64,000 nucleotides of DNA, taken from positions 248,001 through 312,000 of the forward strand of contig NZ_JAMQON010000001.1 in the NCBI RefSeq assembly GCF_031624395.1, read 5' to 3'. A model generated the notes under the pieces. The model saw only the letters and a list, made by a program, of their open reading frames with translations. It was not told the DNA's origin and searched no databases. Each line of letters opens with the position of its first letter. Position 1 is the first letter of the stretch. The translations under genes were made by a program, and so were the position numbers. Source of the DNA: Halomicroarcula saliterrae. GTDB taxonomy: Archaea > Halobacteriota > Halobacteria > Halobacteriales > Haloarculaceae. Shown here piece by piece: positions 10,552-13,525 of this stretch.

Positions 10552-11265
10552 ATGACTGACGGCGTGTGGGTGTCGCTGTTCTCGGGCGGGAAAGACTCTT
10601 CGTGGGCGCTCTACCGCGCACTCGTTAACGATTACCCCGTCGAGCGACTGGTGACGGTCCACCCCGAGGGCGACTCCTACATGTACCACGTCCCGGCGAC
10701 GCGGCTCGCGAGCCTGGCCGCCGAGAGCATCGGCATCCCGCTCGTGGAGGTCGAACCCGACGACTTCGGCGCCGACGACGTGCCCGACTCCGGCGAACAG
10801 GGCGACGCGGAACTCGAACCGCTGGAGGCAGCCCTGCGCGAACTGGACGCCGAGGTCGGCGTGGCCGGCGTCACCGCCGGCGCCGTCGAGAGCGAGTACC
10901 AGACCAGCCGTATCGAGGCGATGGCCGAGCGCCTGGAAGCCAACCTCTTTGCCCCGCTGTGGCAGGAGGACCCCCGCGACCTCGCCGACGCCATGCTCGA
11001 CGCCGGCTTCGAGATTCGCATCATCCGCGTGGCCGCCTACGGACTGGACGAGTCCTGGCTCGGCCGCACCCTCGACGCCGACGCGCTGGACGAACTGGAG
11101 GAACTCAACGAGGAGTACGGCGTCCACATCCTCGGCGAGGGTGGTGAGTTCGAGACGCTGGTGACCGACGGACCTCACATGGACCGGCGCATCGAGCTCG
11201 ACTATTCGACAGAGTGGGACGGGACGCGCGGGACGCTCGTGGTCGAGGACGCGTGGCTGGAGTGA
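10552..11265 (+). CDS. dph6: diphthine--ammonia ligase (Dph6-like)
   Basis: This 237-residue protein has the PP-loop ATP-binding motif SGGKDS at residues 10-15 and the family signature EGGEFET near the C-terminus. The enzyme amidates diphthine on elongation factor 2, the last step in making diphthamide in archaea and eukaryotes. The central region (GVTAGAVESEYQTSRIEAM and FAPLWQEDP) also fits the family. The ATG at 10552 was chosen because PP-loop proteins begin a few residues before the motif. The 145 bases before it are GC-rich, with GCGAGC-type simple repeats and no clear box. Confidence 0.88.
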   Translation: MTDGVWVSLFSGGKDSSWALYRALVNDYPVERLVTVHPEGDSYMYHVPATRLASLAAESIGIPLVEVEPDDFGADDVPDSGEQGDAELEPLEAALRELDAEVGVAGVTAGAVESEYQTSRIEAMAERLEANLFAPLWQEDPRDLADAMLDAGFEIRIIRVAAYGLDESWLGRTLDADALDELEELNEEYGVHILGEGGEFETLVTDGPHMDRRIELDYSTEWDGTRGTLVVEDAWLE

Positions 11266-11332
11266 ATTCTCTCCGGCTGCTTCGCCGGCCCCACTCCGCG
11301 CGACCGGCCCTTCTAACGTAAATCTCAAGCTA

Positions 11333-11347
11333 AGTATTAATAATACT
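11333..11347. promoter_or_regulatory. 15-bp palindrome upstream of the O-methyltransferase gene, candidate operator
   Basis: AGTATTA and TAATACT are exact inverted repeats around one central base. The site lies about 16 bases upstream of an AT-rich TATA-like word (AAATTTTA, 11363-11370) and 60 bases before the start codon, as expected for an operator. A related half-site, AGTATAATA, occurs at 12876-12884 between the HxlR and MerB-like genes, so the nearby HxlR protein is the natural candidate ligand. Confidence 0.45.
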
Positions 11348-11406
11348 TTCCGCCTAGTAAACAAATTTTAGTGCGGTTCGCGGTACATACCTATCCGACT
11401 ATTGCC

Positions 11407-12471
11407 ATGAGCGAACCACACTCCGACGGCACGAGCGCACGCAACGAGGCGGAACAGCTTAAGCAGGCACAGGAACTCCTCGATGGGTTGTGGAGTGGGC
11501 AGGTTCTCCACGCGGCTGTCAGGGTCGGACTGTTCGACCGGCTCGACGAGGAACCGACGGCGGCCGAGACACTCGCGGCGGCGCTGCAACTGGACCCGGA
11601 CGCGACGTATCGCCTGCTCAGGGCACTGAGCCACTTTGGCGTCCTCGCGGAGGACGACAGCCGGCGGTTCGCTCTGACGCCGGTGGGGCAGTTCTTCCGC
11701 GCGGACCACCCGAAGTCGGTGCAGCCCGGGCTCATGCTGTTCCAGAGCACGGAGTGGGTCACGGCCCTGACTCACCTGCCCGACATCCTCCGCGAGGGCG
11801 AGCCCGACGGGTTCGTCCGCGAGTACGACCGCGACATCTTCGACTACATGACGGACGCCCCGGAGTTCGCGCGGGCGTTCAACGAGTTCATGACGGCGAT
11901 GTCATACCGGCAGACCGATACCCTGCTCGGGGTGCTGGCGGAGTACGACGTCTCACGGTTCGACCGGGTCTGCGACGTCGGCGGGGGTCACGGCTACCTG
12001 CTCTGTCGGCTGCTAGAGCAGTACCCGGAGCTGGAGGGCACCGTCTTCGACCGGCCCAGCGTCGTCGCCGAGGAGACGGAGTGGCCCCGGAAATTTGGGG
12101 TCACGGACCGCTGTACGTACGTGGGCGGCGATATGTTCCAGTCGGTTCCCGAGGCCGACGCCTACGTCCTGAAGTGGATTCTCCACGACTGGAGCGACGA
12201 GGCGTGCGTGGACGTTCTCTCGACCGTCCGCGAGGCGGCCCCCGCCGACGCCCGGCTGTTCGTCCTCGAAGCGGTCGTTCCCGGGCCGGAGCAGTCACAC
12301 TTCTCGAAGAAACTGGACGTGGCGATGCTGGCACACATGGGCGGCCGCGAGCGGACACGGTCGGAGTACGCAGCGCTGCTGGACCGTGCTGGCTGGACCC
12401 TCGCCGACCAGTGGGTGCCACCGGAGGGCCCGATGCAGGTCCTCGAAGCGAGGACGGCCCTCGCCGAGTGA
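11407..12471 (+). CDS. SAM-dependent O-methyltransferase (COMT/ASMT-like)
   Basis: This 354-residue protein has an N-terminal winged-helix dimerisation domain (about 20-105) and a C-terminal Rossmann methyltransferase domain. The SAM motif is DVGGGHGYLL near residue 194, and KWILHDWSDE is the hallmark of the small-molecule O-methyltransferase family (acetylserotonin, hydroxyneurosporene and plant COMT types). The substrate cannot be read from sequence. It ends five bases before the convergent HxlR regulator. A hydroxylated pigment or quinone would be ordinary substrates. Confidence 0.78.
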   Translation: MSEPHSDGTSARNEAEQLKQAQELLDGLWSGQVLHAAVRVGLFDRLDEEPTAAETLAAALQLDPDATYRLLRALSHFGVLAEDDSRRFALTPVGQFFRADHPKSVQPGLMLFQSTEWVTALTHLPDILREGEPDGFVREYDRDIFDYMTDAPEFARAFNEFMTAMSYRQTDTLLGVLAEYDVSRFDRVCDVGGGHGYLLCRLLEQYPELEGTVFDRPSVVAEETEWPRKFGVTDRCTYVGGDMFQSVPEADAYVLKWILHDWSDEACVDVLSTVREAAPADARLFVLEAVVPGPEQSHFSKKLDVAMLAHMGGRERTRSEYAALLDRAGWTLADQWVPPEGPMQVLEARTALAE

Positions 12472-12476
12472 CTGGC

Positions 12477-12860
12477 TCACTCGGTCCCCGACGCCGCTCG
12501 ACCGGCGCGACCTCGCGCCCACTCCAGAACCGGCTCTAACCGCTCGGCCAGTTCCTCGCCGTCGTCGGTCAGTTCGTACTCCACACGCGGGGGAATCTCG
12601 TCGTACTGTTCTCTGGTGACCAGTCCGGACGCTTCGAGGTCGTCGAGCCGCGTCGACAGCGTCGACGTGCTCGCCTCGGGGACGTGGTCCTCCAGCGTGC
12701 CAAAGCGGACGGTGCCGTGGATGGCCACCACACAGACGATGTCCATCACGTATTTCCGGCCGAGCAGGTCCAGCACGTCGGAGAGCAGACAGTAACACCG
12801 TGGGTCGTCGGTCGCACAGTCGAATCCGTCCATAGCTTTGAGTCCGTGTACCTGCTCCAT
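12477..12860 (-). CDS. HxlR-family winged-helix transcriptional regulator
   Basis: This 127-residue protein fits the HxlR family: LLGRKYVMDIVCVV helix, recognition region PEASTSTLSTRLDDLEASGLV, and wing EIPPRVEYELTDDGEEL. Such regulators sense redox, aldehydes or electrophiles, often through cysteines. Here Cys15, Cys22 and Cys24 form a compact N-terminal group (DCATDDPRCYC) suited to metal or thiol chemistry. I use the ATG at 12860. The ATG at 12833 is an alternative, because a TATA-like word at about 12877-12883 would place transcription near 12853. It is convergent with the methyltransferase and divergent from the MerB-like gene. Confidence 0.82.
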   Translation of the reverse strand: MEQVHGLKAMDGFDCATDDPRCYCLLSDVLDLLGRKYVMDIVCVVAIHGTVRFGTLEDHVPEASTSTLSTRLDDLEASGLVTREQYDEIPPRVEYELTDDGEELAERLEPVLEWARGRAGRAASGTE

Positions 12861-12910
12861 TACTTTGGACTTCACAGTATAATAGCTTCGGATAGCAAAG
12901 CATAGCCGCG

Positions 12911-13525
12911 ATGGCAGACCACCACATCGAACCGAGCGAACTCGGTCACGAACTGGCGCTCGAACAGTTCCGGCTCCCGGCGGATATCGCGACGGGAGTT
13001 GGCGACCTCTACGGGACGGCCCCGCCCGACACCGCGGCGGCCTGGGTCGCGATGCTCCGCGACCGCAAGCGGGGCTACGACGGCGAACCGCCCACTATCG
13101 AGGACCTCTGTACGACCGACGACGGCGCCCACGCCTTCGTCGACGGCGACCGCTCGCAGTCGTACATCTGCGTGCTCGACCCGCTAGTCGTGCCGTTCCT
13201 GGCCGACACGCCCGGCACTATCCGCTCGACCACGCCCGAACGCGGGGCGGCGGTGGAGATAACAGTGGCACCCGACGGCGTCGACTACTCCCATCCGAAC
13301 GCCGTGGTCTCGCTTGGGGTCGCCGACGAGGTCGACTGCGATTCGTGTCCCTCTATCGAAGAGACCTACAAACAGGTGTGTCCGTACATCCACGTCTTCG
13401 AGGACGAGGCGGAGTACGAGACGTGGGCGGCGAACACCGAAGCGGCGACGACGCAGGTACCCGTCGAGACGGGCGTCGCCCTCGCCAGTGCGTTCGCCGA
13501 GAATCTGTTCGGGCCGGCCGGCTGA
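12911..13525 (+). CDS. MerB-like organomercurial (alkylmercury) lyase
   Basis: This 204-residue protein resembles MerB, which breaks carbon-mercury bonds. MerB uses two cysteines and an aspartate (Cys96, Asp99 and Cys159 in the E. coli plasmid enzyme). Matching positions are Cys87 and Asp90 in ICVLDPL, and Cys157 in KQVCPYIHVF, so the triad appears intact. A further pair, Cys143 and Cys146 (CDSC), is not a standard MerB feature that I know. A TATA-like GTATAAT at 12877-12883 lies about 30 bases before the ATG. No mercuric reductase or mer transporter is nearby. The true substrate may be another organometal or a thiol adduct. Confidence 0.72.
   Translation: MADHHIEPSELGHELALEQFRLPADIATGVGDLYGTAPPDTAAAWVAMLRDRKRGYDGEPPTIEDLCTTDDGAHAFVDGDRSQSYICVLDPLVVPFLADTPGTIRSTTPERGAAVEITVAPDGVDYSHPNAVVSLGVADEVDCDSCPSIEETYKQVCPYIHVFEDEAEYETWAANTEAATTQVPVETGVALASAFAENLFGPAG

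Follow-up and report, generated by a model that had tools for sequence, protein, structure and literature searches.

A divergent hxlR–merB-like gene pair of Halomicroarcula saliterrae as a probable organomercury detoxification module

Genes and features of the locus

We analysed a 64,000-nucleotide stretch of the 4.2-Mb genome of Halomicroarcula saliterrae (contig NZ_JAMQON010000001.1, positions 248,001 to 312,000; hereafter the window, to which all coordinates refer). The genes of interest lie in the order dph6 (+), O-methyltransferase (+), hxlR (-) and merB-like (+) (Table 1), and the families assigned to the last three in a preliminary description made from the sequence alone were all confirmed by Pfam matches.

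Table 1. Position and character of the features at the hxlR–merB-like locus
Feature	Position	Strand	Remarks
dph6 (diphthine–ammonia ligase)	10552..11265	+	TIGR03679, 264 bits (cut-off 197); syntenic neighbour conserved in relatives
17-bp palindrome, AAGTATTA-A-TAATACTT	11332..11348		exact; 5' of the O-methyltransferase gene; outside the system
O-methyltransferase gene	11407..12471	+	PF00891 and PF08100; neighbour, outside the system
hxlR-type regulator gene	12477..12833	-	PF01638; 118 aa; Cys6, Cys13, Cys15, Cys34
Putative operator, 42-bp imperfect inverted repeat	12861..12902		TACTTTG-28-CAAAGCA; profile of 80 sites
TATAATA	12878..12884		probable TATA element of both divergent genes; conserved position
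merB-like organomercurial lyase gene	12911..13525	+	PF03243; 204 aa; triad C87-D90-C157

Relatives have dph6 followed by hxlR (reverse) and merB, and the divergent hxlR–merB pair recurs at about 30 loci in many genera across the haloarchaea. Of about 16 syntenic loci, only two have the methyltransferase gene between dph6 and hxlR, namely the window and locus L070 of one relative (genome G305), and homologues of its product (E < 1e-50) occur in 5 of 146 genomes of the family. The gene is convergent with hxlR, so that the two have no promoter in common. Its product is a Methyltransf_2 protein with a dimerisation domain, similar to CalO6 and MmcR; it belongs to the plant/polyketide O-methyltransferase group and is not of the ArsM type, the metalloid methyltransferases.

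The palindrome in front of the methyltransferase gene is exact, as described previously, but it spans 17 bp instead of the 15 bp (11333–11347) first reported. It is unique in the genome and is the sole AT-rich member of a group of about 18 palindromes in the window with arms of at least 8 bp and spacers of up to 4, which means that such an element is not rare by itself. The palindrome is absent upstream from the only orthologous methyltransferase gene, that of G305, and it finds no match with the profile of the HxlR operator described below. We therefore rejected it as an operator for HxlR, the role that it had been given; another factor may bind there.

These observations bear on the proposal that the methyltransferase, the regulator and the lyase form one system for alkylated metal(loid)s or electrophiles, with the palindrome as its operator. 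The three genes are indeed adjacent, in the window and in G305, but an order conserved in haloarchaea was not borne out, the methyltransferase being missing from most syntenic loci. Together with the convergent orientation, the unconserved palindrome and a methyltransferase of the wrong group, this makes a three-gene system scarcely credible. The O-methyltransferase gene is a recently inserted, unrelated neighbour, and, judged from gene order, the unit at this locus is one of two genes, hxlR and merB-like.

Other syntenic loci show that the region is variable. Fragments of the dph6 3' end are repeated between dph6 and hxlR at L071 (5003–5350) and L089 (6253–7212), which suggests that local duplication or recombination has occurred repeatedly at the place where the methyltransferase gene sits in the window. 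Moreover, three loci from genus-mates (L077, L088 and L089) carry decayed merB/hxlR remnants adjoining dph6; as read from these remnants, the pair is undergoing loss in some lineages.

The MerB-like protein and its regulator

The MerB-like protein matches PF03243 with 63.5 bits (cut-off 27), and the Cys-Asp-Cys triad noted at the outset is intact: C87, D90 and C157 align with C96, D99 and C159 of MerB and are invariant in 34 homologues. Its AlphaFold model (pLDDT 90.5) has 11 PDB matches at E < 0.001, all of them MerB, with a TM score of about 0.5. The protein thus has in common with bacterial MerB (PF03243; R831b MerB, PDB 3f0o and 1s6l; MerB2, 5c17) the fold, the CxxD...C triad, the size and the domain order. 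It differs from them by an identity of only about 20% and by scores below the NCBIfam equivalog cut-offs (51.3 versus 193 bits for PRK13239, 44.5 versus 200 bits for lyase_MerB), by which it ranks as a diverged member of the MerB family. Two further residues, C67 and H74, are likewise invariant in the 34 homologues, whereas the bacterial MerB sequences in the alignment lack them; in addition, merA and merR do not accompany the gene. MerB-like genes have already been annotated in haloarchaea (PMC3600143; PMC8261052; RefSeq 'merB: organomercurial lyase'), and distant relatives of the window lyase carry the label merB at NCBI.

Some of the more distant MerB-like proteins (loci L087, L090, L091, L094–L102, L106 and L107) bear a Cys-rich N-terminal extension (CDCC, CNC, DCCDQCG), which the window protein does not have. 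A further MerB-like subfamily (L092, L097, L159 and L160) has no hxlR; its genes are flanked by an HTH_10 regulator on one side and by a copper-type P1B ATPase on the other.

The regulator contains the PF01638 winged helix (72.7 bits, cut-off 20.8) and is therefore a member of the HxlR family. Its start most likely lies at 12833 and not at 12860, because close relatives share only the second ATG and carry stop codons 5' of it. As a result, the cysteines first listed as Cys15, Cys22 and Cys24 are present but become C6, C13 and C15, and a fourth one, C34, had been overlooked. C13, C15 and C34 are invariant among 26 aligned homologues, while C6 is not, and none of the genome's six further HxlR paralogues has C13, C15 and C34 as a set.

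A fold search returned B. subtilis HxlR, YodB, HypR and QsrR as the best structural matches. B. subtilis HxlR (the formaldehyde sensor, PDB 7bzd) and YodB, HypR and QsrR resemble the window protein in their winged-helix fold and in an N-terminal cysteine near helix 1. By contrast, they have a Cys-x-Lys motif or a single cysteine where the window protein has a CxC motif and the helix Cys34, and the latter differs also in that its partners are mer genes. Neither the window protein nor its aligned homologues have a lysine two positions behind the aligned cysteine, which makes it unlikely that the regulator senses aldehydes in the way of B. subtilis HxlR and disfavours formaldehyde as the ligand.

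A conserved putative operator and its link to haloarchaeal mer genes

A conserved element with the consensus TACTTTGGACTTCACAGTATAATAACTTCGGTATTCAAAGTA lies in the gap between hxlR and merB; its 7-bp outer arms, 28 bp apart with the TATA element in the middle, form an imperfect inverted repeat. A profile built from 80 sites, the window being excluded, matched the window only at 12856–12911 with E = 1.2e-15, the next best match having an E of about 6; the sites had been gathered with a loose pattern, on which the profile therefore depends to some degree, although the window site took no part in it. The core pattern has a single exact match in the whole genome, at this same site. The TATA element is at a conserved position about 33 nt 5' of the merB ATG, and the merB transcript would probably be leaderless. 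The segment 12876–12884, formerly taken for a half-site related to the palindrome, turns out to be the TATA part of the conserved element.

A variant form of the element is also present at hxlR–merA and hxlR–C14 promoters, C14 being a protein of 112 residues that belongs to no Pfam family and in which a vicinal CC is conserved (L107 5299–5637 and relatives). HxlR homologues of about 48–60% identity adjoin, divergently, MerA proteins scoring above the TIGR02053 cut-off. A class-wide search of 391 haloarchaeal genomes found a strong MerA match in 52 (51 above the cut-off), and all 30 MerA loci examined from that search had an HxlR of the subfamily divergently beside them. In the combined set, HxlR adjoined each of 58 MerA locus entries, some of which represent the same place twice. 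Conversely, a scan of named genomes seeded with HxlR placed 17 of the 20 haloarchaeal matches beside merA, merB or C14; among the next 60 matches, all non-haloarchaeal, there was none (0/60). We define here a haloarchaeal HxlR–mer regulon by a CxC HxlR, a divergent mer gene and the common operator, all three of which are found in the window.

These partners also bear on the idea that the regulator is a general thiol-redox or aldehyde switch of the YodB, HypR, QsrR or B. subtilis HxlR type, with the lyase as one stress target. Its closest solved structures are of just this kind, but its haloarchaeal partner genes are almost only merA, merB and C14, its operator occurs once in the window genome, and the lysine of the formaldehyde Cys-x-Lys motif is lacking; we consider such a switch very improbable.

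As reported earlier, there is no MerA nearby, the whole window included, nor a mercury transporter beside the hxlR/merB pair. Furthermore, no MerA above the cut-off is encoded in the whole genome (best match 345 bits, TIGR02053 cut-off 454), and the mercury link is consequently indirect here. The locus thus departs from a mer operon both in this respect and in its regulator, which is an HxlR and not a MerR- or ArsR-family protein. The suggestion previously made, that the system may serve something other than mercury, is nevertheless not supported, given the presence of the same HxlR subfamily and operator beside true MerA at all haloarchaeal loci examined.

The more distant MerB–HxlR pairs are on plasmids together with metal P1B-ATPases, HMA domains and C14. 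The C14 gene itself often diverges from hxlR, with a bile-acid-type symporter close by, and in two Rhodococcus plasmids C14 relatives are found within genes annotated as MerR-family regulators. A link to arsenic through the SBF symporter near the distant pairs was considered and dropped: bile-acid/pantoate-type models match weakly, and ACR3 is not among the matches.

On these grounds one might suppose that the MerB-like protein, with its fold and triad, acts on another organometal (organotin, organoarsenic or organolead) or binds a soft metal, and that HxlR senses that compound. The scores below the equivalog cut-offs, the extra invariant C67 and H74, the genome devoid of MerA, and distant copies whose neighbours are a bile-acid-type symporter, C14 and metal ATPases instead of merA are all compatible with this. 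We nonetheless regard it as unlikely, since true merA is served by this regulator subfamily and operator too, and since all three residues of the MerB triad are invariant.

The regulators also differ in their thiols according to the gene they accompany. All 35 unique MerA-linked HxlR proteins have C-x5-C-x-C and Ser34, while 43 of the 45 linked to MerB or C14 have CxC and Cys34; of the two exceptions, L085 is real (Trp) and L151 is a parsing artefact. Note that CxC alone was rejected as a mercury signature, as many archaeal HxlR proteins that have no mer neighbours carry it. In HxlR proteins distant from mer genes, CxC commonly occurs without Cys34, and Cys34 is thus the more specific mark of the MerB/C14-linked regulators. 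At four loci of one genus, g11 (L075, L076, L078 and L079), the MerB-like protein and HxlR both end in vicinal CC, which looks like a C-terminal metal-binding tail gained by both proteins.

A candidate mercury-sensing switch

One review (PMC3466566) names only MerR, ArsR and MerD as regulators of mer operons, and covers the ArsR-like repressors of Sulfolobus and Streptomyces. Like MerR and the ArsR-like repressors, which control merA or merB, often divergently, and for which sensing of mercury by thiolates has been proposed, the HxlR studied here is paired with mer genes and has candidate thiols; unlike them, it belongs to the HxlR/DUF24 family. Genomes with MerB but without MerA, as in the present case, have been discussed (PMC8261052). 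The haloarchaeal merA/merB literature that we found (including PMC3600143 and PMC8261052) describes no regulator, operator or HxlR link, and a search conducted mostly outside subscription papers returned none linking HxlR to mercuric reductase or organomercury lyase. An HxlR-type regulator of haloarchaeal mer genes thus appears undescribed so far and, with relatives beside every merA examined, it looks like a novel mercury-sensing switch.

We favour, with a probability of about 0.8, the interpretation that hxlR and the merB-like gene form a self-contained module for the detoxification of organomercury, under an HxlR-type sensor of mercurials. As far as sequence comparison goes, the gene pairing, the operator, the MerB triad and fold, and the regulator and operator held in common with merA are established. 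Repression, mercurial sensing and catalysis are what we infer from them. Regulation by the Cys-bearing HxlR of its own gene and of the lyase gene, as first suggested, is plausible, in contrast to the membership of the methyltransferase (2 of about 16 syntenic loci).

In the resting state, an HxlR dimer would sit on the 42-bp inverted repeat and block the access of TBP/TFB at both genes, thereby repressing hxlR itself as well as merB. Binding of a mercurial by the thiols of C13, C15 and C34 would release HxlR from the operator. The lyase would then bind R-Hg+ through C87 and C157, and D90 would protonate the carbon, with release of the hydrocarbon and Hg(II). As the genome encodes no MerA, thiols, export or a partner system would have to deal with the Hg(II).

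More broadly, we tentatively suggest, at somewhat less than even odds, that haloarchaeal mercury genes are under a private HxlR-type sensor that replaces MerR/ArsR, and that the ligand can be read from where the third thiol lies: a helix Cys34 for organomercury (merB, C14), an N-terminal Cys together with Ser34 for inorganic mercury (merA). The way in which a sensor might separate organic from inorganic mercury could be tested cleanly on the split between Cys34 and Ser34. Finally, one HxlR subfamily and one operator join merA and merB in haloarchaea, and through this link the demethylation of organomercury by archaea becomes open to direct testing in Haloarcula-type strains that can be cultured.
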